64,000 nt of DNA from Streptomyces venezuelae (GTDB lineage Bacteria; Actinomycetota; Actinomycetes; Streptomycetales; Streptomycetaceae). Below the pieces are notes generated by a model, which saw nothing but the letters and a program-made list of their open reading frames with translations, searched no databases and was not told the DNA's origin. The position numbers and the translations under genes were made by a program. Shown here in pieces: positions 7,223 through 63,876 of the stretch (the stretch's first letter is position 1; each line of letters begins with the position of its first letter). The stretch spans positions 5,022,001 through 5,086,000 of the forward strand of contig NZ_CP029192.1 of assembly GCF_008642315.1 (NCBI RefSeq), in the 5' to 3' direction.

Positions 7223-7330
7223 CCTTTGCGGGCCCGACGCGGTGTCCGGTTGCGGCAGGATCGACATGGTTCATGATCATCTGCCGAGGCGTCAGCTCCG
7301 CTGCGCCCGCGAGAAGTCAGGTGTGCCACC

Positions 7331-34363: not shown

Positions 34364-34376
34364 GTTTATCACTCGA

Positions 34377-34392: not shown

Positions 34393-34396
34393 GGCA

Positions 34397-34435: not shown

Positions 34436-34516
34436 CGGCCTGCCACCACACCCAGTGCGGTGCCGGACCAGCACGAGTGACGAGCGTGCAGCCGGCCCAA
34501 ACCCGAGCAGTCACCC

Positions 34517-48792: not shown

Positions 48793-50368
48793 CGGAGAAG
48801 CGCTCCCGCAGCTTGTACTTGAGGACCTTGCGCAGGGTCTCGTTGCGGGGAAGCGCCTCGACCAGCTCCAGTTGCTCCGGCAGCTTGTAGGTGGAGAGGC
48901 CTTCCCCGCGCAGGTACGAGGTGACCGCCTCCAGGGTCAACGTGCCGGTGCCCGCGCGCTGTTCGACGACCGCGCAGACGCGTTCCCCGCGTTCGGGGTC
49001 GGGCAGGCCGATGACGGCCGCCTCACCGACGGCCGGGTGCTGGTGGAGCAGATCCTCGATCTCCTTGGCGGAGATGTTCTCCCCCTTGCGGATGATGATG
49101 TCCTTCGCCCGCCCGGTGAGGACGAGATGGCCGGTCTTCCTGAGGTGGCCGAGGTCCCCGGTGATCAGGAACCCGTCGGCGTCGAAGACGTCCGCGCTCT
49201 GTGCCGGGTCCAGGTAGCCCCGGCAGACGGCCTCCCCGCGCAGCCGCACCTCGCCGTCCGTGTCGGGCGGCAGCTCGTTGCCGTCCGCGTCCGTGATGCG
49301 GATCTCCATGCCCTCGGGGGGCAGCCCTTCCGTCGTCGCGAGGTTCTCCGCCGTGTCGTCGGGGGCGCCCATGGTGATCATCGGCACCTCTGTCATGCCG
49401 TACCCGTGCGTGAGCTGACACCCGATCTCGCGTACCACCGCGTGGTAGACCTCCGGCGGCTTGGGCGCGCCGCCGCCCGCGAGCAGGCGCAGCGTCGGGA
49501 TGACCTTCTGCCCTTCGGGCAGTTGGCGCTGTTCGGTGAGGAACATCGAGTAGAACGCCGTCGAGCCGCCCGCCACGGTCACGCCGTGGCGCCGGTAGCC
49601 GTCGAGCGACGCGGGCAGCGCGAAGTGCTCGAACATGACGGCGGGGAAGCCGTAGAGCAGCAGCATCACGGTGTAGTCGGGGCCCGCGATGTGGGCGAAG
49701 GGGAACGCCATCGAGCCGACGTCCGACGCGTCGAGACGCAGGGCGTGGGCCAGGCACGAGCCGCCCGCGATCAGTGAACGGTCGGTGTGCAGAACGCCCT
49801 TGGGGTCGGATGTGGTGCCCGAGGTCCAGTAGATCCAGCGCACCGCCGTGCCGTCGGAGGGCGGCGGGGGGAGCACGGCCGGGTCGGCCTCGGGCAGCGA
49901 CGCGTACGCCTCGAAGACCTCGATCTCCCTCTCGCCCTCCGTGGTGAGTCGGCGGGCCATCTCCGTGTGGTCGAAACCGCGCCAGACGCCCGGCACGGCG
50001 AAGAACTCCGCCTCGGACTCCCGGAGTGCGTAGCCGACCTCGCGGTCCCGCAGGAAGGGGATCAGGGGCGACTGGACGGCGCCCAGGCGGGCGAGCGCGA
50101 AGGAGAGCAGGGCGGTCTCGATGCGGGTGGGCAGCTGCCAGGCGACGACCGTGCCGGGCCGTACGCCCCTCTCGTACAGTCCGGCGGCGACGCGCTCGGA
50201 GCGGTCCCGCAGCTCACCGAAGGTGAGCGTCCGGTCGGCGGAGGGCTCGGCGGCCGCCTCCACGAGGACGGGCCCCTCGGGGGTGAGGTCGGCGCGGCGC
50301 GCGATGAGCTCCCAGAGGGTGTTGGACTCTCCCAGTGCGTACGCGGTCTCGTTCACCGAGGTCCTCAT
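48776..50368 (-). CDS. Acyl-CoA ligase (cyclohexanecarboxylate/fatty-acid type, AMP-forming)
   Basis: 530 residues; ATG with GGGAGGGG upstream. ANL motifs: P-loop YWTSGTTSDPKGVLHTD, HGYGMTEVPM, GDLGHLRKTGHLVLTGRAKD and the C-terminal catalytic Lys in RNETLRKVLKYKLRE. It activates a carboxylic acid to its CoA thioester. The closest familiar group is alicyclic/aromatic or medium-chain acid ligases. Its promoter region, shared with the acyl-CoA dehydrogenase pair, holds two CTGACG-type operators. Confidence 0.9.
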   Translation of the reverse strand: MRTSVNETAYALGESNTLWELIARRADLTPEGPVLVEAAAEPSADRTLTFGELRDRSERVAAGLYERGVRPGTVVAWQLPTRIETALLSFALARLGAVQSPLIPFLRDREVGYALRESEAEFFAVPGVWRGFDHTEMARRLTTEGEREIEVFEAYASLPEADPAVLPPPPSDGTAVRWIYWTSGTTSDPKGVLHTDRSLIAGGSCLAHALRLDASDVGSMAFPFAHIAGPDYTVMLLLYGFPAVMFEHFALPASLDGYRRHGVTVAGGSTAFYSMFLTEQRQLPEGQKVIPTLRLLAGGGAPKPPEVYHAVVREIGCQLTHGYGMTEVPMITMGAPDDTAENLATTEGLPPEGMEIRITDADGNELPPDTDGEVRLRGEAVCRGYLDPAQSADVFDADGFLITGDLGHLRKTGHLVLTGRAKDIIIRKGENISAKEIEDLLHQHPAVGEAAVIGLPDPERGERVCAVVEQRAGTGTLTLEAVTSYLRGEGLSTYKLPEQLELVEALPRNETLRKVLKYKLRERFSATRER

Positions 50369-50397: not shown

Positions 50398-50412
50398 CTG
50401 ACGCCTCGTCAG
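50398..50412. promoter_or_regulatory. Operator CTGACG-CCT-CGTCAG
   Basis: A perfect 15-bp palindrome 30 bp upstream of the CoA-ligase start. One of five related sites in the right part of the window. Confidence 0.7.
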
Positions 50413-50475
50413 ATCGTGCCGAGAGCGTAAGCCCCGGCGCCTTGTCGGTCCAGATGCGCGGGGCTAGCCTGCCGT

Positions 50476-50490
50476 CTGACGGGTCATCAG
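50476..50490. promoter_or_regulatory. Operator CTGACG-GGT-CATCAG
   Basis: A one-mismatch palindrome 56 bp upstream of the acyl-CoA dehydrogenase start, second site of the divergent ligase/dehydrogenase promoter. Confidence 0.68.
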
Positions 50491-50545
50491 ATACGGGTCG
50501 GACACCCCATGCCGTGTGACGACCGAGGCCGGAGGGACGCACCGC

Positions 50546-51688
50546 ATGGACCTCACGTACACCGACGAGGAGGAAGCCTTCCGGGCCGGGCTGCGCGACT
50601 GGCTCTCGCTCGTGCTGCCCGAGCTCCCCGCCAAGCCCTCGCCCCAGGACTGGCCGGGACGCCGCGCCTACGACACCGCGTGGCAGCGCCTGCTGTACGA
50701 CGCGGGCTACGGAGAGGTCCACTGGGACGCCTCCCCGACACAGCGCCTCATCTTCCTGGAGGAGACGGAAAAGGCGGGCGCCCCCTACGTAGGGGCCAAT
50801 TTCGTGGGCCTGCTCCACGCGGGCCCCACCATCGCCTCCGAAGGCACGCCGGAACAGCGCGACCGGTGGCTGCCGCCCGTCCTGCGCGGCGACGAGGTGT
50901 GGTGCCAGGGCTTCAGCGAGCCCGACGCGGGATCCGACCTCGCGTCGCTGCGCACGCGCGCGTGGCGGGACGGCGACCACTACGTGGTGAGCGGCTCCAA
51001 GATCTGGACCTCCCACGCGGAGGTCGCCGACTGGTGCGAGCTCCTGGTGCGGACGGCACTCGTCAGCGAGGCCGTGCCGAAGCACCGGGGCATCACCTGG
51101 CTCGCGATGCCGATGGACGCCCCCGGCATCACCGTGCGGCCGCTGCGCACGCTCGCGGGGTCCACGGAGTTCGCCGAGATGTTCCTCGACGACGTGCGCG
51201 TCCCCGTGGCGAACCGGGTCGGCGAGGAGAACGACGGCTGGCGCGTGACGATGGTGACCCTGTCGTACGAGCGGGGCACCGCCTTCGTGGGGGAGGTGGT
51301 GGCCTGCCGGCGCGTCCTCGGCGAGCTGGCCCGCGAGGCCCGCGGGAACGGCCGCTGGGGCGACCCGGCGCTGCGGCGCAGGCTCGGCCGGCTGAGCGCC
51401 GAGTTCTCGGCGCTGTGGCGGCTCACGCAGTGGAACGTGAGCGAGGCGCAGCGCACCGGCGGCGTCCCCGGGGTGGGCGGCTCGGTCTTCAAGCTGCGCT
51501 ACTCGCACGCGCGCCAGGAGCTGTACGACGCCGCCGCCGAGGTGCTCGGCGCGGGCTCGCTCGACCTCGCCCACGAGTGGACCCTCGACCGCCTCTCCTC
51601 GCTCTCGTACACGATCGCCGCGGGGACCTCGCAGATCCAGCAGAACATCGTGGCCGAGCGCATCCTCGGCCTCCCGAAGGGCCGGTGA
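50546..51688 (+). CDS. Acyl-CoA dehydrogenase, large partner of a two-subunit enzyme
   Basis: ATG 50546 with GGAGGG nine bases upstream; 380 residues. FAD/substrate motifs: WCQGFSEPDAGSDLASLRTR, SGSKIWTSHAEVADWCELL, and C-terminal AAGTSQIQQNIVAERILGLP. The C-terminal motif lacks a catalytic Glu. The next gene is a second, short ACAD overlapping by GTGA. Adjacent unequal ACAD pairs in actinobacteria (for example FadE26-27, FadE28-29) form alpha2beta2 enzymes acting on bulky, often steroid or ring-bearing, acyl-CoAs. Confidence 0.9.
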   Translation: MDLTYTDEEEAFRAGLRDWLSLVLPELPAKPSPQDWPGRRAYDTAWQRLLYDAGYGEVHWDASPTQRLIFLEETEKAGAPYVGANFVGLLHAGPTIASEGTPEQRDRWLPPVLRGDEVWCQGFSEPDAGSDLASLRTRAWRDGDHYVVSGSKIWTSHAEVADWCELLVRTALVSEAVPKHRGITWLAMPMDAPGITVRPLRTLAGSTEFAEMFLDDVRVPVANRVGEENDGWRVTMVTLSYERGTAFVGEVVACRRVLGELAREARGNGRWGDPALRRRLGRLSAEFSALWRLTQWNVSEAQRTGGVPGVGGSVFKLRYSHARQELYDAAAEVLGAGSLDLAHEWTLDRLSSLSYTIAAGTSQIQQNIVAERILGLPKGR

Positions 51689-52548
51689 GGGTTCGCGTGG
51701 ACTTCCAACTCGACGACGACCAGCGGGCCTTGCGGGCCGGCATGCGACAGCTCCTGGAGGGCCGGTTCTCGCTGCGGGATGCCACGGACCGGCTCGACCG
51801 CGCGCTCTGGCGCGAGCTGGGGGAGGCGGGCTTCTTCTCCCTCGCGCTGCCCGAGGCGGAGGGCGGGGTCGGACTGGGGCTCCCGGAGGCCGTGTTGGTC
51901 TTCGAGGAGGCGGGGCGGGTGCTGCTGCCCGGGCCCGCAGTCGCGACGTTCCTTGCGGCGGGGGTGGTGCCCGGCGCCGCGACGGGGGAGGCCGTGGTCA
52001 CCGCGGTCGACGGCGCGCTGGTGCCGTGGCTGGACGAGGCGGACGTGGTCCAGGGCGAGGCGGCCGGCGCCGTCCCCCTGCGGTCCGTCGACCCGCTGAC
52101 ACCGCTGCACCGCGTTCCGGACGCGGGCGGCCTCGACCGCGGGGCGCTTCTCTATGCGGCGGAACAGCTCGGCAGCGCCGTACGCACCTGCGAGACGGCC
52201 GTCCAATACGCACGGCGACGCAAGCAGTTCGGGCAGCCGATCGGCGCGTTCCAGGCGGTGAAGCACCTCTGCGCGCAGATGCTCGTACGCGCCGAGCTCG
52301 CCCGCGCCGCGGTGTACGCGGCGGCCGTCACCGGGGACCGCCTGGACGCGTCCGCCGCCAAGCTGCTGGCCGACGACGCGGCCGTGCGCAATGCGCGGGA
52401 CTGTCTTCAGGTGCACGGCGGCATGGGGTTCACCTGGGAGTCGGACGTCCATCTGCACCTCAAGCGGGCCTGGGTGCGGGCGGAGCTCGGGAGGTCGGCG
52501 CGGGCCGCCGAGGAGGAGCTCGCCGAGGCGCTCATCGAGGCTCCCTGA
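51685..52548 (+). CDS. Acyl-CoA dehydrogenase, short partner subunit
   Basis: 287 residues, GTG in a GTGA overlap. It keeps the N-terminal helical domain (DDDQRALRAGMRQLLEGRFS, LGEAGFFSLALPEAEGGVG) and the C-terminal four-helix domain (YARRRKQFGQPIGAFQAVKH, LQVHGGMGFTWESDVHLHLK), but the middle beta-domain is strongly reduced. Too short to act alone; it most likely completes the active site of the upstream subunit. Confidence 0.88.
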   Translation: MRVRVDFQLDDDQRALRAGMRQLLEGRFSLRDATDRLDRALWRELGEAGFFSLALPEAEGGVGLGLPEAVLVFEEAGRVLLPGPAVATFLAAGVVPGAATGEAVVTAVDGALVPWLDEADVVQGEAAGAVPLRSVDPLTPLHRVPDAGGLDRGALLYAAEQLGSAVRTCETAVQYARRRKQFGQPIGAFQAVKHLCAQMLVRAELARAAVYAAAVTGDRLDASAAKLLADDAAVRNARDCLQVHGGMGFTWESDVHLHLKRAWVRAELGRSARAAEEELAEALIEAP

Positions 52549-52990
52549 AAAATTGGTCTGTCCGATATCGTGCGCTTTGCCCGTTGTTTCGTCCCTCTGG
52601 TGCCGCCCGGACGGGGACTACTCAGCGTCGATATCGGGTTGTGTCCTACGCGTGACTCGTCACGGCACGGAGTCGGTGTCCGGCTCGGGTACCTTGTGTG
52701 AGATGCGAGTGGTCCTGAGGCCGAACCATGCCGGAGTTGCCCATGTGGTGGCGCCGGATCCGGCGATGCGCACCGCTCGCGGCGCAGGGCGGGGCTCGGC
52801 CGCCGCCTGTTCGACCCCCCACGGTGCGCGTCGCACAGTATGCAGTACGCGTACTCCTTCGCGCTGGAATATGCCCGAAGCGCTTGTTGGGGTGACTGAA
52901 CGTCAATCATGCTGTCTCCCAAGGGGATCACGTTCGGTGACCCTGTGGAGTCGCGAGGCGATGTGTCCGCCGGTTCGGATGGTGTGAGCG
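52549..52990. other. 442-bp spacer upstream of the ATPase gene
   Basis: Less GC-biased in parts (ATGCAGTACGCGTACTCC near 52839). Contains two 13-bp palindromes close to the gene: TGACTGAACGTCA (52893-52905) and the BldD-like box (52928-52940). No credible gene. Confidence 0.5.
52928..52940. promoter_or_regulatory. BldD-box-like palindrome
   Basis: TCACGTTCGGTGA fits the TNAC-N5-GTNA arms of the BldD box about 50 bp upstream of the GTG at 52991. The centre differs from consensus. BldD represses many developmental genes in Streptomyces vegetative growth. Confidence 0.4.
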
Positions 52991-53737
52991 GTGCAGGTGC
53001 TTCAAGTTCAGCTGGAGGTCGGGGCCGATCCCGCGGAGGTGGGGCGGGCCAGACGATGGGCGCGGTCCAGGCTCGCGGGCTCCGGGATAGAGGCCGATGA
53101 GCCGGTCGCCGAGACGCTGATCCTGCTGATCTCGGAACTCGTCACCAACGCCGTTGTGCACACCGGCTGTCCGGCTGTGCTGCGCATGCTGCTCCCGCGC
53201 GTCCTCGCCGACGCCCCCGGGACGGTCAGGGTCGAGGTGGCCGACAGGAGCGCCCGTCCGCCCGCCCAGCGGCACGCGGACGGCGACGACACCAACGGCC
53301 GCGGCCTGGAGCTGGTCGACGGCCTCGCCGACCGCTGGGGCTGGCAGCCCGAGGGTGCGGGCAAGAGCATCTGGTGCGAGGTCGACCGGTGCGAGCCGGG
53401 CGTCGCGGCGGTGGAGTTCGAGGGCACGACCCACGACGGGCAGGCGTACGACGGACAGGCCTGTGCGGGACAGGGCTACGGACAGGCCCACGACGAGGCG
53501 GCCTGCGCTCCGTCGGTGCGCGGCTCGGCGGGCAGCCTGGTGCAGGACCCCGCGCACGGTCCGGCCCGCCATCTGGCGTACGGGGACCTGGCGCATGGAG
53601 GCCTCGCGCACGGGCCGACGGCCTGCGACGCGACGACGCCTCTCGGGGTGACCGCGTGCGACGGCGCGGCGCACGAGAGGGCGCTCCGCAGCCGGGTGGC
53701 TTTCGGGGACGTGGACATCGCCTACGAAGCGGTGTGA
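52991..53737 (+). CDS. SpoIIAB/RsbW-like ATP-binding protein with Cys/His-rich tail
   Basis: 248 residues, GTG start. HATPase_c_2 domain (about 10-135): N-box ISELVTNAVVHTGCP, G1 VEVADRSARPP, G2 NGRGLELVDGLADRWGW. These proteins are anti-sigma kinases or relatives, very numerous in Streptomyces. The remaining 110 residues are unusual: tandem THDGQAYDGQACAGQGYGQ followed by AHG/ACD-rich repeats with several Cys, not part of the fold. Partner sigma factor and antagonist unknown. Confidence 0.85.
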   Translation: MQVLQVQLEVGADPAEVGRARRWARSRLAGSGIEADEPVAETLILLISELVTNAVVHTGCPAVLRMLLPRVLADAPGTVRVEVADRSARPPAQRHADGDDTNGRGLELVDGLADRWGWQPEGAGKSIWCEVDRCEPGVAAVEFEGTTHDGQAYDGQACAGQGYGQAHDEAACAPSVRGSAGSLVQDPAHGPARHLAYGDLAHGGLAHGPTACDATTPLGVTACDGAAHERALRSRVAFGDVDIAYEAV

Positions 53738-54105
53738 CGCTGTCCGCTCGTCCGGCGCGAGGCCTGAGAGCCCGCATGCGCCGTCCTGTGCTGCTGTGCG
53801 CGCTCCCGTGCGCTGGCGGGGCAAAAGGGGCGTAGTTCATTAATCCCCGACACGGTGTTGACGTACCGTGCCCGAATGATCACGCTTGTGGGCAGCGATT
53901 CGCCGTGAGGGGACGTCGAGGGCTCGCAGGCGCGGTGCAGCAGGCGCGGTGCCGCAGGTCCTTGGCGCAACGTGAGTCGCCCTTTCAAAGCCGGTCGGCG
54001 GCGTGCGTGGTGGCGTACTGGGGGCGACATCCGACGCGCCGCCTTCCGTGCAGGACCGTCGAGGTCGATTGCGGCCGGTTCCCCCCCGGTCGCGCTCGCG
54101 CGGGG
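53738..54105. other. 368-bp spacer between convergent ATPase and cyclase genes
   Basis: Holds TTGACG at 53858-53863 and an AT-richer stretch (TTCATTAATCC near 53836) but no matching -10. A 10-codon frame at 53877 is within chance expectation. No hairpin of terminator strength was noted. Confidence 0.45.
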
Positions 54106-55056
54106 TCAGAGGATGGCGACCGGCGCCACCGGAGTGCCCGTGCCGCCTGTGAACGGCTCCGGCATCGCGCACAGCAAGAAGGCGTGGCGGGAGACTTCTG
54201 CACAGGCTGTGGACAAGTTCTCCAGATTCCAGTTCTGTCCCTGGATCATCCCCATCTCGACGAGGTGGAGCGCGTGCACGGGCAGCCACAGGTTCTCGAT
54301 CTCCGGCGGGAAGATCTCGAAGGTCAGGGTGTCGTTCGCGACCGCCGCGACGTCCCGCGCGTGGAACCACTCGGGCGTGCGGACCGAGAGGCCGGGGGAC
54401 GGATGGCCGTACGCGTGCTTGTCGCCCGCGAGATAGACCTGCATCTGCCCCGTGCGCACGAGCACGATGTCGCCCGCGCGGACCGTGACACGCCCGAACT
54501 CCGCCGCCTCGTCCAGGTCTTCGGGCGTGACCGCGTGGTCCCCCGGCAGGCGGTCGAGCCCTTTGGCGCGGGCCACGTCCAGGAGGACGCCGCGCGAGAC
54601 GACGTGCCGGGCCTTGTCGATGCCGCTGAAACGCGCGCCCGCGTGAGCCGTGATGGTGTCCGCGGAGCGGCCGTTGTAGATCTTCCCCGAGTGCGAGGCG
54701 TGAGTGAGGGCGTCCCAGTGGGTCGCCGTCTGCAGCCCCATCGTCACGGCGTCGTCGCTGGTGGCGACGGTGCCGGGTCCGAAGAGCTCCTGGTTGATCT
54801 GCACCATGGTGTGCAGCGGGTTCACGCGCCCGGGGATCAGGCCGGTCTGTACGCCGTCCTCCTTGAGCGGCAGCGCGAGCGGGACGCGGCGGCCGGTGCG
54901 GACTTCCGCGGATGCGGCGCGTACGACGTCGTCGGTGATGAGGTTGAGCGTGCCGATCTCGTCGTCGGCGCCCCAACGGCCCCAGTTCGAGACGCGTTTG
55001 GCGATGTCGTGGAACTCGGGAGGGAGGGCCGGGGGCGGCGTTTCTTCGACTGGCAT
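54106..55056 (-). CDS. Cyclase-family metal-dependent hydrolase (kynurenine formamidase-like)
   Basis: 316 residues. The metal-binding signature of the cyclase family, HWDALTHASH (near 112-121), is complete, with a later His-rich strand (WLPVHALHLVEMGMIQGQNW) and Glu. Such enzymes hydrolyse amides or lactones such as N-formylkynurenine or isatin, or act in ring opening. Here the gene is divergent from the SDR operon and shares its operator region, so a ring-opening or lactone step in the same pathway is likely. Confidence 0.88.
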   Translation of the reverse strand: MPVEETPPPALPPEFHDIAKRVSNWGRWGADDEIGTLNLITDDVVRAASAEVRTGRRVPLALPLKEDGVQTGLIPGRVNPLHTMVQINQELFGPGTVATSDDAVTMGLQTATHWDALTHASHSGKIYNGRSADTITAHAGARFSGIDKARHVVSRGVLLDVARAKGLDRLPGDHAVTPEDLDEAAEFGRVTVRAGDIVLVRTGQMQVYLAGDKHAYGHPSPGLSVRTPEWFHARDVAAVANDTLTFEIFPPEIENLWLPVHALHLVEMGMIQGQNWNLENLSTACAEVSRHAFLLCAMPEPFTGGTGTPVAPVAIL

Positions 55057-55091
55057 GGTCTGGGTCCTCCACGGGGGTTGTCTTCCGGCAT

Positions 55092-55106
55092 CTGACGGGT
55101 CATAAA
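55092..55106. promoter_or_regulatory. Operator half-site CTGACG-GGT-CATAAA
   Basis: Left arm identical to the family motif, right arm weak. 36 bp upstream of the cyclase-family gene. Confidence 0.5.
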
Positions 55107-55108
55107 AT

Positions 55109-55123
55109 CTAACGGTCCGTCAG
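55109..55123. promoter_or_regulatory. Operator CTAACG-GTC-CGTCAG
   Basis: A one-mismatch 15-bp palindrome, about 20 bp upstream of the SDR start, adjacent to the site at 55092. Both would be occupied by one repressor controlling the two divergent units. Confidence 0.68.
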
Positions 55124-55145
55124 AAACCGCGGGAAGGGGCCGGAC

Positions 55146-56057
55146 GTGGGGAACTTCTTGGCAGGCAAGGTGGTCGCCGTGACCGGCGCCGGGCGCGGCA
55201 TCGGCAGGGCCGTCGCCCTGGCCGCGGCGGCCGAGGGGGCGAAGGTCGTCGTCAACGACTACGGCGTCTCCATGGAGGGCGGCGAGCCGGCCAGCGAGGT
55301 GGCCGACGCCGTGGTCAAGGAGATCCAGGCCGCGGGCGGCCAGGCGGTCGCCGTCGCGGACGACATCTCGACCATGGCGGGCGGGCAGCGCATCGTCGAC
55401 GTGGCGCTCGCCGAGTACGGGCGGGTGGACGGCGTGGTGTGCGTCGCCGGGATCCTGCGCGAGCGGATGCTGTTCAACATGTCCGAGGAGGAGTGGGACC
55501 CGGTGGTCGCCACGCACCTCAAGGGCACGTTCACGGTGTTCCGCGCGGTGTCCGCGGTGATGCGGAAGCAGGGCTCGGGCACGCTGATCGGCTTCACCAG
55601 CGGCAACCACCAGGGCTCGGTCGCGCAGGCCAACTACAGCGCGGCGAAGGGCGGGATCATCTCGCTGGTGCGGAGCGCGGCGCTGGGGCTGCACAAGTAC
55701 GGGGTGACCGCGAACGCGGTGGCGCCCGTCGCCCGTACGCGGATGTCGGCGAACGTGCCGATGGAGCTCAAGGAGATCGGCGAGCCCGAGGACGTCGCCG
55801 CGCTCGTCACGTACCTGCTGAGCGACCGTGCACGCGACGAGAAGATCACCGGCCAGGTCTACACGATCGCCGGCCCCAAGATCGCGGTCTGGGCACAGCC
55901 GCGCGAACTGCGTGCGGGGTACGCGGAAGGGGCCTGGACCCCCGAGAAGATCGCGGACTTCCTGCCCGGAACGGTCGGCACCGATCCGATGCCGTTGCTG
56001 ACACAGCTGGAGGCGATGGCCAAGGCGGCGGCGGGGAGGGAGCGGCCCAACGCGTGA
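55146..56057 (+). CDS. Short-chain dehydrogenase/reductase (hydroxyacyl-CoA dehydrogenase type)
   Basis: 303 residues, GTG start with GGGAAGGGG upstream. Rossmann motif VTGAGRGIGRAVA, Ser/Tyr/Lys catalytic set (GFTSGNHQGS, ANYSAAKGG). The VNDYGVSMEGGEPAS segment and C-terminal extension (GYAEGAWTPEKIADFLPG) are those of the (3R)-hydroxyacyl-CoA dehydrogenase part of multifunctional enzyme type 2. It likely oxidises a 3-hydroxyacyl-CoA in the pathway. First gene of an operon with an ACAD and an alcohol dehydrogenase. Confidence 0.9.
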   Translation: MGNFLAGKVVAVTGAGRGIGRAVALAAAAEGAKVVVNDYGVSMEGGEPASEVADAVVKEIQAAGGQAVAVADDISTMAGGQRIVDVALAEYGRVDGVVCVAGILRERMLFNMSEEEWDPVVATHLKGTFTVFRAVSAVMRKQGSGTLIGFTSGNHQGSVAQANYSAAKGGIISLVRSAALGLHKYGVTANAVAPVARTRMSANVPMELKEIGEPEDVAALVTYLLSDRARDEKITGQVYTIAGPKIAVWAQPRELRAGYAEGAWTPEKIADFLPGTVGTDPMPLLTQLEAMAKAAAGRERPNA

Positions 56058-56121
56058 GGTGGAGGTGGGCTGGGTCGGGCCGGACTGGGCTCGGCTGGGG
56101 TGGTGGGAGGGTGGTGGGCTG

Positions 56122-57441
56122 ATGGAGTTCGGGTTCGGGGCCGAGGACGAGGCGTTCCGGGCGGAGGCGCGGGCGTGGCTCGCGGAGCACCTCACCGGGG
56201 AGTTCGCCGCCGCGGTGGGGCGGGGCGGGCCCGGCAGCGAGCACGAGGGCGGTGCGCAGCGGCGGGCCTGGGAACGGGAGTTGGGGCGCGGGGGGTGGAT
56301 CGGGCTCGGCTGGGATGCGGGGGCGGGCTCCGGTGCTGGTGCCGGAGCCGGAGCGCCTGCCGGTGCCGGTGCCAGTGCCAGTGCCGGTGGGTGTGTGGGT
56401 GCGTATGGGAACCGGCGGGCCACCTTGACCCAGCAGGTGGTCTGGGCCGAGGAGTACGCGCGCGTGCGGGCGCCCGGGCGGTACGGGCACATCGGCGAGA
56501 ACCTGCTCGCCCCGACGCTCCTCGCGTACGGGAGCCGGGAGCAGCGGGACGAGTTCCTGCCGCCGATCGCGCGGGGTGAGACGCTGTGGTGCCAGGGGTA
56601 CAGCGAGCCCGGGGCCGGGTCCGATCTCGCGGGGGTGCGGACGCGGGCGGAGCGGGACGACGCGGGCGACTTCCTGGTGACCGGACAGAAGATCTGGACG
56701 TCGCTGGCGCACGAGGCGGACTGGTGCTTCGTGCTGGCGCGTACGGGGGGCGGGACGCGGCCCCACGAGGGGTTGTCGTTCCTGCTCGTGCCCATGGACC
56801 AGCCGGGGCGTGTCGAGGTCCGGCCCATCCGGCAGCTGACCGGGACGAGCGAGTTCAACGAGGTCTTCTTCGACGGTGCACGCGCGCGTGCGGCCCATGT
56901 GGTGGGCGGCGTCGGCAACGGGTGGCGGGTCGCCATGGGGCTCCTCGGCTTCGAGCGGGGCGTGTCCACGCTGGTGCAGCAGATCGGGTTCGCGGAGGAG
57001 CTGGCGGCGGTCGTACGGGAGGCCGTGGCCGGCGGGGCGGTGGACGACCCGGTGGTGCGGGATCGGCTGGTGCGGCAGTGGGGGGAGCTGCGGGTGATGC
57101 GGTGGAACGCGTTGCGGACGTTGGGCAGTGCGGGTGCGGGTGCGGGTGCCGGTGTGGGGGCGGCGGGCGTCGTCGGGGTCGGCTCGCCCAGTGTGGCCAA
57201 GTTGCTCTGGGGGCGGTGGCATCAGCGGCTCGGGGAGCTGGCGATGGCCGTACGGGGGGCGTCGGCGGCGGTCGGGCCGCGCGACTGGTGTGTGGATGCT
57301 CCTTATGAACTCGACCCTCTGCAACGGCTGTTCCTGTTCAGCCGTGCCGACACCGTGTACGGCGGCTCGGACGAAGTGCAGCGGAACATCATCGCCGAGC
57401 GCGTGCTCGGTCTGCCGAGAGAGGCCAGGGGGCCTCGGTGA
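56122..57441 (+). CDS. Acyl-CoA dehydrogenase with microsatellite insertions
   Basis: ATG 56122 with GGGAGG upstream (GTG 56059 is in frame without a site). 439 residues: EPGAGSDLAGVRTRAERD, GQKIWTSLAHEADWCFVLAR, and C-terminal FSRADTVYGGSDEVQRNIIA. Two Gly/Ala-rich inserts interrupt it, about 70-90 (encoded 56331-56390) and about 335-350 (57129-57155), both made from hexanucleotide repeats in places where relatives have surface loops. The rest is a normal FadE-type enzyme. Confidence 0.88.
   Translation: MEFGFGAEDEAFRAEARAWLAEHLTGEFAAAVGRGGPGSEHEGGAQRRAWERELGRGGWIGLGWDAGAGSGAGAGAGAPAGAGASASAGGCVGAYGNRRATLTQQVVWAEEYARVRAPGRYGHIGENLLAPTLLAYGSREQRDEFLPPIARGETLWCQGYSEPGAGSDLAGVRTRAERDDAGDFLVTGQKIWTSLAHEADWCFVLARTGGGTRPHEGLSFLLVPMDQPGRVEVRPIRQLTGTSEFNEVFFDGARARAAHVVGGVGNGWRVAMGLLGFERGVSTLVQQIGFAEELAAVVREAVAGGAVDDPVVRDRLVRQWGELRVMRWNALRTLGSAGAGAGAGVGAAGVVGVGSPSVAKLLWGRWHQRLGELAMAVRGASAAVGPRDWCVDAPYELDPLQRLFLFSRADTVYGGSDEVQRNIIAERVLGLPREARGPR
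56331..56390 (+). repeat. Hexanucleotide repeat (GGTGCC-type) inside the ACAD gene
   Basis: Degenerate GGTGCC/GGAGCC/AGTGCC units encoding Gly-Ala, Ser-Ala. A second tract of GCGGGT units lies at 57129-57155 in the same gene. Confidence 0.8.
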
Positions 57442-57451
57442 GGGGTGCGGG

Positions 57452-58501
57452 ATGAGGGGCGTTGTCTTCGACGGGGCGCGGGTCGAGGTCGTCGACGATC
57501 TGGAGATACGTGCTCCGGGGCCCGGGGAGGTGCTGGTCGCGGTGGCGGCGGCCGGGCTGTGCCACAGCGACCTGTCGGTGATCGACGGGACCATTCCGTT
57601 TCCGCCGCCGGTGGTGCTCGGGCACGAGGGCGCGGGTGTCGTCGAGGCGGTGGGGGCCGGGGTGGTGCACGTGGCGCCCGGGGACCACGTGGCGCTGTCC
57701 ACGATCGCCAACTGCGGCACGTGCGGGGAGTGCCATCGGGGCCGGCCGACGATGTGCCGGAAGGCCATCGGGACGCCCGACCAGCCGTTCACGCGCGGCG
57801 GCAAACCGGTCTACCAGTTCGCGGCGAACTCGTCCTTCGCGGAACGAACGATCGTGAAGGGCGTGCAGGCGGTCAAGATCCCGGACGACATTCCGCTGAC
57901 CTCCGCGGCGCTGATCGGGTGCGCCGTCGTGACGGGGGTGGGCGCGGCGCTGAACCGGGCGAAGGTCGACCGGGGCGACTCGGTGGTGGTGATCGGTACG
58001 GGCGGGATCGGGCTCAACGTGTTGCAGGGGGCGCGGATCGCGGGGGCGGGGGTGATCGTCGCGGTCGACGCCAATCCGGAGAAGGAGGCGGTGGCACGGC
58101 GCTTCGGTGCGACGCACTTCTTCGCGTCGACGGAGGGGGCGCGGGAGGTGTTGCCCCACGGGGTGGACCACGCGTTCGAGTGCGTGGGGCGGGTCGAGCT
58201 GGTGCGGGAGGCGGTGGATCTCCTGGACCGGCATGGCCAGGCCGTGCTGTTGGGGATGCCGGGGGCGACGGCGGAGGCGTCGTTCGTGGTCGCGTCGATG
58301 TTCCTGGACAAGTCGATTCTGGGCTGCCGGTACGGGAGTTCGCGCCCGCAGCGGGATTTCGCGCTGTACGCGGAGCTGTACAGGAACGGTCGCCTGCTCT
58401 TGGACGAACTGGTGACGGCGACGTACCCGGTGGAGGACTTCGAGGTGGCGGTGGGGGACGCGAAGGCGGGGAGGGTGGCGCGGGGGGTCCTCACGTTCTG
58501 A
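57452..58501 (+). CDS. Zinc-dependent alcohol dehydrogenase (class III-like MDR)
   Basis: 349 residues. Catalytic-zinc Cys and His (GLCHSDLSV, LGHEGAGVVEAVG), structural-zinc Cys cluster (NCGTCGECHRGRPTMC), NAD-binding GTGGIGLNVLQGARIAG. Such enzymes oxidise primary or secondary alcohols or thiol-aldehyde adducts (some use mycothiol). Follows the ACAD by 10 nt; same operon. Confidence 0.92.
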   Translation: MRGVVFDGARVEVVDDLEIRAPGPGEVLVAVAAAGLCHSDLSVIDGTIPFPPPVVLGHEGAGVVEAVGAGVVHVAPGDHVALSTIANCGTCGECHRGRPTMCRKAIGTPDQPFTRGGKPVYQFAANSSFAERTIVKGVQAVKIPDDIPLTSAALIGCAVVTGVGAALNRAKVDRGDSVVVIGTGGIGLNVLQGARIAGAGVIVAVDANPEKEAVARRFGATHFFASTEGAREVLPHGVDHAFECVGRVELVREAVDLLDRHGQAVLLGMPGATAEASFVVASMFLDKSILGCRYGSSRPQRDFALYAELYRNGRLLLDELVTATYPVEDFEVAVGDAKAGRVARGVLTF

Positions 58502-58528
58502 GAGCTGGGTCTCGCGGGTCCCTCCGCC

Positions 58529-58607
58529 CCCTCCGCGCGGAAAAGCGGGGGACCCCGGGACCCGCCCCTTCGCTCCCTCCACGCGGAAAAGCAGGGGAAC
58601 CCCGGGT
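58529..58607. repeat. 32-bp direct repeat in the ADH-MFS spacer
   Basis: CCCTCC-CGCGGAAAAGC-GGGGACCCCGGG pattern twice (58529-58560, 58575-58607), each containing a short C/G stem. May act as the terminator of the SDR operon. Confidence 0.65.
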
Positions 58608-58630
58608 GGGCGGGTCGGTAGGTTCGAGGG

Positions 58631-59866
58631 GTGGGGTATTCGGCGGTCAGGTCATGGGACGTGGTGCGGTGGGGCGTTGTCGCCGTGGGGGCGCGGATGC
58701 CCGTCGCGGCGGCGCCGCTCGCGCTGGTGTTTCTCGTACGGGAACGGCCCGGTGGGTACGTGCTCGGTGCCGCGCTCGCCGCCGCGTACGTCGTGGGGGA
58801 GATCATCGGTGCCCCGGTTCTGGGCATGCGGATCCGGGCGGAGCGGGCGCGGGGCGCGCTGGCCGTGGGGCTGGGGGTCGGTGGTCTCGCCTTCGCGGGG
58901 CTCGGGGTGCTGCACGGCGCCCACCCCATCGCACTCGGCGCCTGCGCTTTCGTCGCCGGTGCCGCCCCCGCCGCCGCCCCGGGCGCCCTCCGCACCCTGT
59001 TGACGAGCATCGTGCCGGAGACGGCCGTCGCCCAGGCACTGGCCGTCGAGTCGATGCTGACGTTCGCCATCTGGGCGGTCGCCCCCGCCGCCGTCACGGG
59101 GCTCGCCCTGGGGGTCTCCCCGGCGCTGCCGCTGCTCCTGGCGGGCCTGCTGATGACCGGCTCCGTCGCGGGGCTCTGGATGCTGCCCGCCGGGTGGCAG
59201 GCGGACGCCGACGACCGCGGCGGTGAGTCCATGACGCGGATCCTCGCGCGGGCCTGGCCGCTGTTCGTGACGGGCGCGGCGAGCCTGTCGATGCTGGCGC
59301 TCGCCGAACTCGTGCTGCCCGCACTGCTGGAGCAGCGCGGCATCGACGTCGGCTGGGCGGGCCCGCTGCTGGTGGCGCTCGCGGCCGGCTCGGCGGTGGG
59401 ATCGTTCGTGTACGGGCTGCGTCGCTGGCCGGGGCGGCTGCGTACACAGAGCATGGTGCTGATGTTCGGCGTCTCCGGATGTCTCGCCCTCGTCGCCGTG
59501 CTGCCCGGCGTGGCCTGGCTGTTGGTCGCGCTCGCAGCCGCCGGCGTGCTGCAGGCGGGCGTGATGCTGACCCGGAACCTGTCGCTGCGCGAGGCGCTGC
59601 CGCCCAGCGCGCTCGCCGCGGGCTACTCGGTGATGTACGCGGCCGTCGGCGCCGGCTACGCGGCCAGTGGGTCCCTGGCCGGCGGCCTGCTGAGCGTCGT
59701 GTCGCCGTCCACGGCGATCCTGGCGGGCGTGGGGCTCGGTCTCGTCCTCACGCTGGTGGGGGTGGCGGGGGAGGTGAAGCCCGGGGCGGCGGGGGACGCG
59801 GGGGCGGACTCAGGGCGTGGGGACGTTGCGGAACGTTCGGCGGTAGGCCGTCGGTGTGACCCCTAG
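58631..59866 (+). CDS. MFS transporter
   Basis: 411 residues, GTG start, with about 12 hydrophobic helices (PVAAAPLALVFLVRERPGGY, LGACAFVAGAAPAAAPGALR, YSVMYAAVGAGYAASGSLAG). It lacks a long central loop except WQADADDRGGESMTR. Substrate unknown; efflux or uptake of the pathway compound is possible. Its last 57 nt overlap the convergent regulator gene, so the hydrophilic tail (SGRGDVAERSAVGRRCDP) is the reverse strand of the regulator's HTH end. Confidence 0.88.
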   Translation: MGYSAVRSWDVVRWGVVAVGARMPVAAAPLALVFLVRERPGGYVLGAALAAAYVVGEIIGAPVLGMRIRAERARGALAVGLGVGGLAFAGLGVLHGAHPIALGACAFVAGAAPAAAPGALRTLLTSIVPETAVAQALAVESMLTFAIWAVAPAAVTGLALGVSPALPLLLAGLLMTGSVAGLWMLPAGWQADADDRGGESMTRILARAWPLFVTGAASLSMLALAELVLPALLEQRGIDVGWAGPLLVALAAGSAVGSFVYGLRRWPGRLRTQSMVLMFGVSGCLALVAVLPGVAWLLVALAAAGVLQAGVMLTRNLSLREALPPSALAAGYSVMYAAVGAGYAASGSLAGGLLSVVSPSTAILAGVGLGLVLTLVGVAGEVKPGAAGDAGADSGRGDVAERSAVGRRCDP

Positions 59867-60829
59867 CGCGGCCTGAAGGTGCTGCCGCATCGACTGCGCC
59901 GTCCCGAAGCCCGCGTCCGCCGCGACCTGGTCGACGGAGAGATCCGTCGATTCGAGGAGGTGCCGTGCCCGCTCCACGCGCTGCTGCGTCAGCCACTGTC
60001 CGGGACTGACGCCCACCTCCTCGCGGAACCGCCGCGTGAACGTGCGGACCGACATCGACTCCTGTGCGGCCATGTCGCGCAGCTGCAACGGCCGGTCGAG
60101 CCGCCCCAGCGCCCAGGCACGTGCCGCGCGCGTGGTGGCCACCTGCGGTTCGGGCAGCGGGCGGTGGATGTACTGGGCCTGACCGCCGTCCCTGTGCGGC
60201 GGTACGACGGTACGGCGGGCCACCTCGTTGGCGACGGCGGTGCCGTGGTCACGACGTACGACATGGAGACACAGGTCGATGCCCGCGGCCACGCCCGCCG
60301 ACGTGAGGACGTCGCCGTCGTCGATGAACAGCACGTCGGCGTCGACCTCGACCCGGGGGAAGAGCCGCTGGAAGTGGTCGGCGGACGACCAGTGCGTGGT
60401 GGCGGGCCGGCCGTCCAGGAGGCCCGCGGCGGCCAGTACGTATCCACCCGTGCAGATGGCCATCAGGCGCGTCCCCGGCCTGATGTGAGCCAGGGCGGCG
60501 GTGAGTTCGTCGCTGAGGCGGCCCTCCTCGTACACGGGGCCCAGCTCGTACGACGCCGGGATCACGACCGTGTCCGCGGTGGCCAGCGCCTCGGGCCCGT
60601 GCTCGACGACGATCGCGAAGTCGGCGTCCGTGCGGACGGGGCCCGGCGGACGGACCGAGCAGGTCACCACCTCGTACAACCGTCGCCCCTCCGGAGTGCG
60701 CGCCCCCTTGAAGATCCGTTGCGGAATGCCCAGTTCGAAGGGGATCACGCCGTCCAGGGCGAGGACGACGACGCGGTGGCGCCCCTCGGGGACGGGTGAG
60801 GTGGCTGCGTCGGCGGCTGAATCGGCCAT
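59810..60829 (-). CDS. GlxA-type AraC-family regulator (DJ-1/PfpI + HTH)
   Basis: 339 residues. N-terminal DJ-1/PfpI-like domain with the nucleophile-elbow Cys in AICTGGYVLAAAGLL, then an AraC HTH (MSVRTFTRRFREEVGVSPGQ, STDLSVDQVAADAGFGTAQS). GlxA-type regulators usually bind a metabolite in the first domain. Divergent from the MFS gene at 60900 with 70 bp between, so that transporter is its likely target. Confidence 0.9.
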   Translation of the reverse strand: MADSAADAATSPVPEGRHRVVVLALDGVIPFELGIPQRIFKGARTPEGRRLYEVVTCSVRPPGPVRTDADFAIVVEHGPEALATADTVVIPASYELGPVYEEGRLSDELTAALAHIRPGTRLMAICTGGYVLAAAGLLDGRPATTHWSSADHFQRLFPRVEVDADVLFIDDGDVLTSAGVAAGIDLCLHVVRRDHGTAVANEVARRTVVPPHRDGGQAQYIHRPLPEPQVATTRAARAWALGRLDRPLQLRDMAAQESMSVRTFTRRFREEVGVSPGQWLTQQRVERARHLLESTDLSVDQVAADAGFGTAQSMRQHLQAALGVTPTAYRRTFRNVPTP

Positions 60830-60899
60830 GGCCCGATCCTAGCGAACACTGTCCCTCGGGCCACTCGTTCGAGCGCGGACGATTTTCGATCCTTATGAC

Positions 60900-62237
60900 G
60901 TGACCCAGACAACCGAGACGCCCGCGCCCGCTGCCGGGGACGGCGGCTCCACGCCGCCGGACGCGGCCAGGCGCCGTACTCCCCGTATCCACCGCGCATG
61001 GTTCGTCGCCGCCGTCACGTTCGTGACGATCATCGGCGCCGCCGCGTTCCGTTCGCTCCCCGGGCTGCTCTTCGACCCGCTGAAGGAGGACTTCGGCTGG
61101 TCGCGCGGCACCGTCGGCCTCGCGGTCTCCGTCAATCTCGCGCTGTACGGCCTCACCGCGCCGTTCGCCGCCGCGCTCATGGACCGATTCGGCATCCGCA
61201 AGGTCGTCGCGGTCGCGCTGGTCGTGATCGCTTTCGGCTCGGGTCTGACCGTGTGGATGAACTCCGCGTGGCAACTGCTGCTGTGCTGGGGGCTGCTCGT
61301 CGGGCTCGGGTCGGGCTCGATGGCGCTCGCCTTCGCGGCCACCGTCACCAACCGGTGGTTCACCGAGCGGCGCGGGCTCGTCAGCGGCATCCTCACCGCG
61401 GCATCCGCATCAGGACAGTTGGTCTTCCTGCCGCTGCTCTCCTGGATCGTGGAGACGTACAAGTGGCGGCCGGCCGCCGTGACGGTCGCGCTCGCCGCCC
61501 TCGCGGTCGTCCCGTTCGTCTGGCTGCTGCTGCGGGACCACCCGGCGGACGTCGGCCTGAAGCCGTACGGCTCGCCGGAGTTCGTGCCGAAGCCGCCGCC
61601 CGTCCCGGGCGCGGCACGGCGTGCGATCACCGTGCTGCTCAAGGCTGTTCGCACCGGCCCGTTCTGGCTGCTCGCCGGGTCCTTCGCGATCTGCGGCGCC
61701 TCGACGAACGGGCTCATCCAGACCCACTTCGTGCCCGCCGCGCACGACCACGGCATGGGGGTGCGGGCCGCGGCCTCCCTGCTCGCCGTCATCGGGATCT
61801 TCGACATCGTCGGGACGGTCGCGTCCGGCTGGTTCACGGACCGCTTCGACTCGCGGCGCCTGCTCGCCGTCTATTACGCGCTGCGCGGCGTCTCGCTGCT
61901 CTTCCTGCCGATGCTGCTCGCGCCGGACGTCCGGCCGCCGATGATCTTCTTCATCGTCTTCTACGGCCTGGACTGGGTGGCCACCGTCCCGCCCACGCTG
62001 GCGCTCTGCCGCGAGCAGTACGGCGAGGACAGCGCGATCGTCTTCGGCTGGGTGCTCGCCTCGCACCAGGTGGGCGCGGGTCTCGTCGCGTTCCTCGGCG
62101 GCGTGGCGCGGGACGTCTTCGGCTCGTACGACGTGATCTGGTACGCCTCGGGGGCGCTGTGCGCGGCGGCGGCGCTGATGGTGCTGGTGATCCGGCGGGC
62201 CCGGACGGTACCGGTGGCGGCCGCCGTCAGCGGGTGA
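60900..62237 (+). CDS. MFS transporter, OFA/monocarboxylate type
   Basis: 445 residues, GTG start, 12 helices with an RIHRAWFVAAVTFVTIIGAA start, the MFS loop DRFGIRKVVAVAL and LFDPLKEDFGWSRGTVGLAV. The sequence type is that of monocarboxylate or oxalate/formate-like transporters, fitting import of a carboxylic acid for the nearby CoA ligase. The 3' end overlaps the convergent flavin reductase by 11 nt. Confidence 0.9.
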   Translation: MTQTTETPAPAAGDGGSTPPDAARRRTPRIHRAWFVAAVTFVTIIGAAAFRSLPGLLFDPLKEDFGWSRGTVGLAVSVNLALYGLTAPFAAALMDRFGIRKVVAVALVVIAFGSGLTVWMNSAWQLLLCWGLLVGLGSGSMALAFAATVTNRWFTERRGLVSGILTAASASGQLVFLPLLSWIVETYKWRPAAVTVALAALAVVPFVWLLLRDHPADVGLKPYGSPEFVPKPPPVPGAARRAITVLLKAVRTGPFWLLAGSFAICGASTNGLIQTHFVPAAHDHGMGVRAAASLLAVIGIFDIVGTVASGWFTDRFDSRRLLAVYYALRGVSLLFLPMLLAPDVRPPMIFFIVFYGLDWVATVPPTLALCREQYGEDSAIVFGWVLASHQVGAGLVAFLGGVARDVFGSYDVIWYASGALCAAAALMVLVIRRARTVPVAAAVSG

Positions 62238-62841
62238 AGCGGCCGAACGTTCCCCGGTGGAACAGGAGCGGGTCGGCGTCGTCCTCGGTCGCGCCGAGGG
62301 CGTCCACGCGGCCGATGACGATGAGGTGGTCGCCTCCGGCGTGCACGGCCTGGACCGTGCAGTCGACCCAGGCGGGCGCCCCGGCGAGGCGCGGCGATCC
62401 GGACACCGGCGCCGCGTCGTACGCCACTCCGGCGAACTTGTCCGCGCCGCTCACCGCGAAGCCCCGGCACAGGTCGCCCTGGTCGGCGCCCAGGATGTTG
62501 ACGCAGAAGACACCGGCGCGCGCGATGCGCGGCCACGTCGTCGACGTACGCGCCACCATGAACGAGACCAGGGGCGGGTCCAGGGAGAGCGAGGCGAAGG
62601 ACTGGCAGGCGAAGCCCGCGGGTCCGCCGTCCTCGTCGGACGGGGACGTGATCACGGTGACGCCCGTCGCGAAGTTGCCGAGCACGCGCCGGAACTCGCT
62701 TCTGTCGAGCGGCGCCCGCTCGTCGTCGCCGACCGCGCGCAGCTGAGGGCGCGGTAGGGCGTCGACGGGCGCCGTCGTGGTGCGGGCCCCGACCGACCTG
62801 AGGTATCGAACAGCGGTGGCCGCCATTCCTGCGTGTCCCAT
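62227..62841 (-). CDS. Flavin reductase (HpaC/FMN-binding family)
   Basis: ATG 62841 is used; ATG 62853 and 62826 are in frame. 204 residues. The split-barrel reductase domain is clear: RRVLGNFATGVTVITSP, GFACQSFASLSLDPPLVSFM, and a GDHLIVIGRV strand. It supplies reduced FMN/FAD to a two-component monooxygenase; none is visible in the window. An operator of the CTGACG family lies 18 bp upstream, placing it in the same regulon. Confidence 0.9.
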   Translation of the reverse strand: MGHAGMAATAVRYLRSVGARTTTAPVDALPRPQLRAVGDDERAPLDRSEFRRVLGNFATGVTVITSPSDEDGGPAGFACQSFASLSLDPPLVSFMVARTSTTWPRIARAGVFCVNILGADQGDLCRGFAVSGADKFAGVAYDAAPVSGSPRLAGAPAWVDCTVQAVHAGGDHLIVIGRVDALGATEDDADPLLFHRGTFGRFTR

Positions 62842-62858
62842 CACGCCGTCCATTGAAC

Positions 62859-62873
62859 CTGACGGGGCGTCAG
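62859..62873. promoter_or_regulatory. Operator CTGACG-GGG-CGTCAG
   Basis: A perfect 15-bp palindrome upstream of the flavin reductase. With 50398 it is the strongest of the set. Confidence 0.7.
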
Positions 62874-62997: not shown

Positions 62998-63876
62998 TCA
63001 GTGGCCTCGGTACGTGGGTGTGCGGCGTTCGACGAAGCTCGCCACGCCCTCCCTCGCGTCCGCCGTCGTCATGTTGATCTCCTGCGCCGCGGCCTCGGCC
63101 GCGAAGGCCGTCGCGCGGTCCGCCTCCAGGGACGCGTTGACCAGCTGTTTCGTCAGGGCGATGGCGCGGGTCGGGCCGACCGCGAGGCGTTCCGCCCACT
63201 CCCGTGCCGCTTTCTCCAACTCCTCCACCGGTACAACGCGGTTGACGAGCCCCATCCTCTCCGCGTCGGCGGCCGGCACCGCGTCGCCGAAGAACATCAG
63301 CTCCTTGGCCCGCTGCGGGCCGATGAGCCGCGGCAGCAGATACGCGCCGCCGCCGTCCGGCACGAGCCCGCGGCGTACGAACACCTCGATGAACCTGGCG
63401 TGTTCGGCGGCGATGACGAGGTCGCAGGCGAACGCGAGGTGGGCGCCGATGCCCGCCGCGGTGCCGTTCACCGCGGCGATCACCGGCTTCTCGCAGTCGA
63501 GGACCGCCGATACGAGCCGCTGGGCGCCCCGCTTGATGGTGCGCGCGACATCACCCGCCACGCGCTCCTGCCCGGCCGTGGCGGGGGCGCCGCGCAGGTC
63601 CGCGCCCGCGCAGAAGCCCTTGCCGACAGCGGTGATCACGACGGCCCGGACGTCGGGGTCGGCGGAGGCTTCGCCGAGCAGCGCGATGACGCGTTCGCGC
63701 TGCTCCCAGGTGAGGGCGTTCATGGCTTCGGGACGGTTGAGCGTGATCCACGAGACCCCGTTGTCAGTGGTGTGCCGTATCAATGTGGTGAGGGGGTCGA
63801 CGGCGGGGTCGGGGTCGGGGGCACGGCCGGGTGCGTGGGTGTTCGGTTCGGTTTCGGGGGCGGGGGAGGCGGTCAT
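62998..63876 (-). CDS. Enoyl-CoA hydratase/isomerase
   Basis: 292 residues, ATG start. Crotonase oxyanion segments (GFCAGADLRGAPATAG; AVNGTAAGIGAHLAFACDLV) and a downstream FVRRGLVPDGGGAYLLPRLI; the second position is Asp-Gly-Gly, so isomerase or other crotonase chemistry is possible. The first 35 residues are Pro/Asp/Thr-rich and unlike the family. Upstream DNA is a GGTGCG-type repeat. Confidence 0.88.
   Translation of the reverse strand: MTASPAPETEPNTHAPGRAPDPDPAVDPLTTLIRHTTDNGVSWITLNRPEAMNALTWEQRERVIALLGEASADPDVRAVVITAVGKGFCAGADLRGAPATAGQERVAGDVARTIKRGAQRLVSAVLDCEKPVIAAVNGTAAGIGAHLAFACDLVIAAEHARFIEVFVRRGLVPDGGGAYLLPRLIGPQRAKELMFFGDAVPAADAERMGLVNRVVPVEELEKAAREWAERLAVGPTRAIALTKQLVNASLEADRATAFAAEAAAQEINMTTADAREGVASFVERRTPTYRGH

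Follow-up and report, generated by a model that had tools for sequence, protein, structure and literature searches.

The 64,000-nucleotide stretch of the Streptomyces venezuelae chromosome analyzed here (the window; bases 5022001–5086000 of the 8.94-Mb contig NZ_CP029192.1) carries several copies of a palindrome, CTGACG-N3-CGTCAG, that is real, non-random and conserved, and that marks a regulon bigger than an earlier reading of this sequence (the original prediction) had it. Very probably, the palindrome is the operator of an SCO4421-type TetR repressor over a regulon for the catabolism of acids that are probably ring-containing. The original prediction placed copies at 50398, 50476, 55109 and 62859 and a half-site at 55092, and all of them are found there. 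It had assigned them to four transcription units, whereas the sites front five (CoA ligase, two-subunit acyl-CoA dehydrogenase (ACAD), cyclase, short-chain dehydrogenase (SDR) operon and flavin reductase), and it had noticed none elsewhere in the window, where we observe an extra one-mismatch copy at 7281. The copies are as follows:

50398..50412, no strand: putative operator CTGACGCCTCGTCAG, 0 mismatches, 29 bp 5′ of the CoA ligase start
50476..50490, no strand: putative operator CTGACGGGTCATCAG, 1 mismatch, 5′ of the two-subunit ACAD operon
55092..55106, no strand: half-site CTGACGGGTCATAAA, 3 mismatches, between the cyclase and SDR genes
55109..55123, no strand: putative operator CTAACGGTCCGTCAG, 1 mismatch, in the divergent cyclase/SDR promoter
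62859..62873, no strand: putative operator CTGACGGGGCGTCAG, 0 mismatches, 5′ of the flavin reductase
7281..7295, no strand: one-mismatch copy CTGCCGAGGCGTCAG, away from any called start

The window thus holds two exact copies and five with at most one mismatch, compared with means of 0.015 and 0.61 (maxima 1 and 4) in 200 dinucleotide shuffles. Looser matches are not enriched (5 against a mean of 8.7 at up to two mismatches, 51 against 78 at up to three), so that weight attaches to near-exact copies alone. A called gene (4250–7222, + strand) ends 59 bp before the copy at 7281, and the next called start is about 620 bp further on; this copy is probably the single chance occurrence to be expected. 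We rejected it as an operator: the nearby 1024-residue open reading frame (ORF) has no library match, and a gene is called on the opposite strand instead.

A scan of the whole genome, which the original prediction had proposed, returned 113 copies of the 15-mer at up to one mismatch compared with 23 for the reversed pattern, 49 compared with 3 for the exact core TGACGNNNCGTCA, and 71 compared with 5 for a wider 19-mer, ATCTGACGNNNCGTCAGAT, at up to three mismatches. Seventeen of the copies with at most one mismatch fall within 69 kb (5.072–5.141 Mb; shuffled mean 0.64, maximum 4), in a block that begins inside the window and extends 54 kb beyond its end. All 17 lie no more than 150 bp 5′ of a called start, a condition that holds for 10.9% of positions; the gene calls come from an in-house codon-usage script, and the start codons are therefore approximate. 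By our own count, the block comprises 17 units in 11 promoter regions, with a slash marking divergent genes:

CoA ligase / two-subunit ACAD
cyclase / SDR, ACAD and alcohol dehydrogenase (ADH)
flavin reductase
NDP-forming acyl-CoA synthetase and enoyl-CoA hydratase, with two sites (genome 5088358 and 5088382)
FMO-like monooxygenase / ChsH2-like OB-fold protein
thiolase / ACAD and F420-dependent reductase
lipid-transfer/thiolase, OB-fold protein and crotonase / FadD3-type ligase
amidohydrolase_2
LLM oxidoreductase and SDR
LLM oxidoreductase, then amidohydrolase_3 and aldehyde dehydrogenase
SDR / unnamed 303-residue protein

The unnamed protein (L018:15445-16356; genome 5140445-5141356) is separated from its divergent SDR neighbor by an exact site. 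It has no Pfam match at 0.001 and no NCBIfam match at 1e-25, and is possibly a new enzyme of the pathway.

Outside the cluster, we analyzed 35 stretches, most of them picked for holding the exact core; the distal one-mismatch sites are those among the matches listed. The following sites stand at genes of related function or are otherwise candidates:

genome 4205396: amidohydrolase_2
genome 4612118: ACAD, MaoC-OB and ACAD genes behind the site
genome 6280208: Rv3520c-subfamily LLM
genome 6285194: double-length ACAD / MFS (divergent)
genome 6294494: MaoC
genome 7526641: OB-fold protein, just under the cut-off for one of two domains
genome 4450348: ACAD
genome 5696453: CasI-like ligase, under cut-off
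genome 3121595: ABC ATPase

Several other distal one-mismatch sites were rejected as targets, being intragenic or placed ahead of HemD and Dak1 genes. The contig begins with two further motif copies inside its first 300 bases (G000:C1:253-299), one exact and one with a single mismatch and separated by 32 bp; these are perhaps telomeric palindromes, not operators.

The sites of the window are conserved across the genus. Among 81 Streptomyces searched at strict E-values, 61 have the ligase, 60 the SDR and 59 the flavin reductase; all three occur in 58, two in 3 and none in 20. A site with at most one mismatch lies within 300 bp upstream at 30/30 ligase, 29/30 SDR and 30/30 flavin reductase loci, sets that include this genome and take the top 30 by score out of 63, 60 and 59 matches, respectively, so that close relatives are favored in these counts. 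The reversed pattern is absent from each set, and block-shuffled means are 0, 0 and 0.2 of 30. A further 12 of 12 Streptomyces ligase loci (L291–L302, from a set of 42 genomes) also have the site. Conservation is concentrated in the arms, which average 1.88, 2.00 and 1.92 bits for the ligase, SDR and flavin reductase promoters, compared with 0.38, 1.51 and 0.36 bits for the spacers; at the SDR promoter the 3′ side is conserved too, which makes the comparison uninformative there, and at the 62859 site the spacer is free to vary. Even the departures from the consensus are shared: the mismatch at 50476 (CTGATG, opposite strand) is common to 25 of 30 orthologous promoters, and the CTAACG variant at 55109 occurs in all 29 orthologous sites found. 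The half-site at 55092 varies among relatives (12 aligned rows). Cluster enrichment, conservation and the catabolic nature of the units all support the originally proposed shared operator of one catabolic regulon.

The original prediction had also noted that no TetR gene lies between 48 and 64 kb of the window and had placed the repressor outside it. The first point is borne out among the TetR_N matches listed for this genome (119, from 150 of 322 candidates scored), which pass from 5042601 (window 20601) to 5097579, a point 11.6 kb outside the window. The second finds support in the gene that contains this next match, encoded at 5097117-5097764 on the − strand, 11.1 kb beyond the window. Its TetR_N match (5097579-5097677) is the sole one among those listed between 5.05 and 5.18 Mb. 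The predicted protein of 215 residues scores 26.7 bits for PF00440 (cut-off 24) and 240.3 bits for PF19352 (cut-off 23.9), and the model of its S. cyaneochromogenes ortholog comprises ten helices with a mean pLDDT of 91. The gene adjoins kbpA, a Ser/Thr kinase gene with PQQ-like repeats and afsR, a neighborhood in keeping with that of SCO4421 in S. coelicolor; we assigned the orthology by this gene position.

This TetR gene is linked to the motif both statistically and by position. We found an ortholog (at least 116 bits) in 43 of 246 Actinomycetes genomes, with four weak matches in genus g31 (85–98 bits) scored as lacking it. At least five exact 15-mers occur in 32 of the 43 genomes with the ortholog and in 1 of the 203 without; the first figure becomes 27 of 38 when family f13, treated below, is excluded, and 8 of 14 outside both Streptomyces and f13. 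Within family f14, the five motif-rich genomes have the TetR gene, and the three motif-poor ones (0–1 sites) are without it. As for position, the original prediction had suggested looking for a regulator with the site at its own promoter, and orthologs of the candidate carry one in two other families: a site with at most one mismatch stands 22–51 bp 5′ of the called start at 9 of 10 loci in families f14 and f16 (genus g53), in a survey that had the orthologs of G011, G019, G027 and G049 outside it. Neighboring sites in f14 stand ahead of genes for ACADs, enoyl-CoA hydratases and an SDR. Across 80 named TetR loci (Streptomyces, Kitasatospora, Streptacidiphilus, Actinacidiphila and one Catenulispora), we counted 73 sites at up to one mismatch compared with 20 for the reversed pattern. 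In 26 of these loci by hand count, CTGATGTACCGTCAG lies roughly 2.4–4.1 kb from the TetR gene, with a second site beside it in 24 of the 26; these sites match the thiolase/ACAD promoter of this genome (5095112, 5095196). The recognition helix, GTSPATFYQYF, is identical in all 45 aligned rows (39 distinct sequences).

We infer DNA binding, repression, effector and substrate as follows. A TetR dimer, bound beside the start codon to CTGACG-N3-CGTCAG or to the wider form ATCTGACG-N3-CGTCAGAT, would keep 11 promoter regions at 5.07–5.14 Mb, which serve about 17 transcription units, and about ten distal candidates repressed until an acyl-CoA intermediate releases it. The units are predicted to encode CoA activation, several ACADs (some of two subunits), MaoC, crotonase, ChsH2-type OB-fold proteins and thiolases/aldolases, as well as F420- and flavin-dependent oxidoreductases, amidohydrolases and transporters. 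The substrate of such a pathway may be a ring-containing, steroid-like or isoprenoid acid.

The substrate is the part of this scheme that faces the strongest alternative, and there is a considerable chance, though somewhat short of even, that the regulon is real and serves an ordinary branched-chain, aromatic or fatty acid instead of a steroid-like or isoprenoid ring system. Within the window, the ligase, ACAD, SDR, ADH and flavin reductase score under the curated cut-offs compared; across the regulon, the cut-offs missed include HsaB (193.9 compared with 230 bits), cyclohexanecarboxylate-CoA ligase, pimeloyl-CoA dehydrogenase, IpdE2 and CasI. The amidohydrolases and LLM oxidoreductases are generic as well. 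A more specific substrate is favored, on the other hand, by proteins that do reach such cut-offs, namely the FadD3 equivalog of NCBIfam (797.7 compared with 657 bits; genome 5103956-5105554), TIGR03559 for the Rv3520c subfamily (434.7 compared with 335) and the PRK07855 lipid-transfer/thiolase (582 compared with 469), as well as by ChsH2-type OB-fold proteins in four units (one just under one cut-off) and by HsaB being the top family for the flavin reductase. An SDR also exceeds its cut-off, that of PRK07890 (346 compared with 258). Judged by family matches, the set of FadD3 equivalog, Rv3520c-type oxidoreductase, ChsH2-like proteins, thiolases and many ACADs resembles that for breakdown of the steroid side chain and C/D rings, with another operator in control. 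Regulon members beyond the window in this way narrow the original prediction of a cyclic acid towards one of steroid-like or polycyclic isoprenoid type, a substrate that we continue to infer.

Several observations weigh against the assignment of this operator to the SCO4421-type TetR, or against the full extent of the regulon. In Streptomyces, the candidate repressor's own promoter holds only a two-mismatch form, CTGACGNCATGACAG, which overlaps the ATG and is partly coding (74 of 80 loci by hand count). The gene is present in 24 of 24 Streptomyces sampled and the ligase in 16; the eight without the ligase must therefore have other targets for the repressor or retain it for another reason. Exact sites number 10–20 in the 16 ligase-bearing genomes and 1–15 in the eight others (Mann–Whitney p 0.0005), one of which reaches 15 despite lacking the ligase. 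Fewer than five exact sites occur in 11 of the 43 TetR-bearing genomes, by a threshold that was set after the counts were seen and among related genomes that are not independent; five of these (G019, G027 with a stop in the gene, G049, Streptomyces G134 and G213) have zero or one. The ligase orthologs of f14 and f16, present in 10 genomes, have no site within 700 bp at any of the five loci examined, and in f13 a site lies nearby at just one of five TetR loci. Finally, a motif equally frequent at random places would have spoken against the original prediction; this is clearly not so in the cluster, whereas of the 44 sites in the 35 stretches elsewhere, 21 are intragenic by the gene calls and just 16 lie within 150 bp 5′ of a called start. 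The distal part of the regulon is accordingly less certain, and single distal sites cannot all be counted as targets.

Some of these points would be met if the palindrome served this regulon as the operator of another regulator (a different TetR, a GntR or other protein) and the SCO4421-type gene were a mere neighbor. The genome has at least 119 TetR_N matches, of which we examined the candidate and one other, and both the degenerate site at the candidate's Streptomyces promoter and its retention without the ligase in 8 of 24 genomes would be expected of a bystander. We nevertheless regard this as improbable in view of the near-exact sites directly 5′ of the orthologs in two other families, the invariant recognition helix and the way in which presence of the TetR gene follows the motif within f14. 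The one other TetR examined (window 20535-21128), which by eye adjoins a run of acyl-CoA carboxylase, ACAD and enoyl-CoA hydratase genes, was rejected as a candidate: it has no site nearby and a different recognition helix. A role of the 6-3-6 palindrome as an RNA hairpin, in attenuation or termination, in place of a DNA operator is scarcely credible. Each of five f13 genomes sampled does hold 109–218 copies of the 15-mer, and 9 of 23 copies examined in one of them lie between convergent genes (2.1% of sequence). In the Streptomyces cluster, however, all 17 sites stand no more than 150 bp 5′ of called starts, the conserved CTAACG variant (29/29 SDR sites) disrupts base pairing of the stem on one strand, and several of the sites lie in divergent promoters.

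The f13 copies are an observation in their own right. The genomes concerned (G012, G031, G046, G059 and G072; L086, L101–L120) have 0–1 copies of the control pattern and also carry a TetR with the same recognition helix. Besides the nine copies between convergent genes, the 23 examined in G012 comprise nine intragenic ones, five between tandem genes and none between divergent genes. We rejected the view that they form an enlarged version of the same regulon, given this placement and given that the six downstream genes scanned in G012 are two DUF222 genes, an ABC ATPase, a PNPOx, a transposase and one without a match, with no ACAD among them. The distribution suggests a terminator-like or chromosome-marking element. 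We also considered a SlmA-like nucleoid role and merely note it, as inspection by eye of the sites listed up to 3.0 Mb of 5.5 gave no obvious gap.

Structures of KstR and KstR2, the TetR repressors closest in kind to the scheme proposed here, are present in the PDB; among the 11 matches of the candidate TetR to PDB sequences (E 0.001), which are EthR, YvdT and unnamed TetR proteins, there is no KstR-named chain. EthR of M. tuberculosis is the nearest solved fold to the TetR model (TMq 0.74–0.79) and, at 15–18% identity, too distant to tell us anything firm about ligand or operator. Rv3561 is FadD3, and the KstR2 regulon includes ACADs and thiolases. Like the SCO4421-type TetR as we propose it, mycobacterial KstR is a single TetR repressor that acts at a palindrome near starts, often between divergent genes, over lipid and steroid genes; PMC1995591 describes a 14-bp palindrome, tens of such genes, autoregulation and a KstR target at the Rv3520c/Rv3521 promoter, and an Rv3520c-subfamily gene likewise carries the Streptomyces site. 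Unlike the present motif, however, the KstR operator TnnAACnnGTTnnA has no match in the 163-kb region and none in the window. KstR2, as described in PMC3068626, acts on 15 genes; its palindrome lies in divergent promoters in the neighborhood of the regulator gene, that of Rv3560c–Rv3561 among them. The arrangement is similar here, but its operator AnCAAGnnCTTGnT has no match in the 163-kb region, and about 17 units stand against those 15 genes. Membership in the KstR or KstR2 system is not shown by these comparisons.

Two TetR genes of S. coelicolor also invite comparison. PMC3878966 places the TetR gene SCO4421 close to afsK (SCO4423) and reports WhiA-dependent, spore-specific expression and a deletion without phenotype; the likeness of the two loci (kbpA, PQQ-repeat Ser/Thr kinase and afsR beside the TetR gene) is one of gene position. 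Sco4385, near SCO4421 by gene number, is a TetR whose small gene cluster also encodes a CoA ligase and an enoyl-CoA hydratase; its published consensus spans 23 bp, and the S. coelicolor matches that PMC12093943 gives for it all have two mismatches and fall in coding regions. A literature search, with most subscription journals outside it, found no paper on the motif as written or on the PF19352 name, and nothing relevant on TetR_C_38, on kbpA with TetR or on the gene combination; SCO4421 itself is named in one of the papers covered.

These results give the SCO4421-type TetR, present in all 24 Streptomyces sampled and with no phenotype reported in S. coelicolor, a testable function, operator and target list, and they point to a large co-inherited catabolic module in Streptomyces. 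To our knowledge, Streptomyces as a genus is not known for growth on steroids, and the steroid-like signature gives a concrete starting point in the search for enzymes and for a connection of nutrition with development. More tentatively, and with the odds against it, most Streptomyces might possess a KstR-independent regulon for steroid-like or polycyclic isoprenoid acids, under an SCO4421-type TetR and a new operator, that is tied to sporulation and perhaps recycles an internal terpenoid; the tie to sporulation is drawn because SCO4421 is reported to be WhiA-dependent in spores.

The genes of the window that accompany the sites are the following:

48776..50368, − strand: acyl-CoA ligase (AMP-binding); top NCBIfam match cyclohexanecarboxylate-CoA ligase, under cut-off
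50546..51688, + strand: ACAD subunit 1; start uncertain, 50516 or 50546
51697..52548, + strand: ACAD subunit 2; IpdE2-like, under cut-off
54106..55056, − strand: cyclase/hydrolase PF04199; relative of solved structure 5ibz
55146..56057, + strand: SDR; library match
56122..57441, + strand: ACAD; library match
57452..58501, + strand: zinc ADH (MDR); library match
58664..59866, + strand: multi-TM protein, next gene past the ADH; ORF and gene call, MFS-like by eye only
62227..62826, − strand: flavin reductase, HsaB-like; 193.9 bits, cut-off 230
62998..63876, − strand: enoyl-CoA hydratase; 3′ of the NDP-forming acyl-CoA synthetase gene outside the window

Between these lie an AraC-type regulator with a DJ-1/PfpI domain (59810-60829; FtrA-like, under cut-off) and, adjoining it in the cluster, an MFS transporter (60900-62237), neither of which has a site of its own at up to one mismatch. 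Elsewhere in the window, positions 34371-34594 match Rfam RF02471, the Ms_IGR-5 actinobacterial small RNA, with 71.5 bits compared with a threshold of 45.

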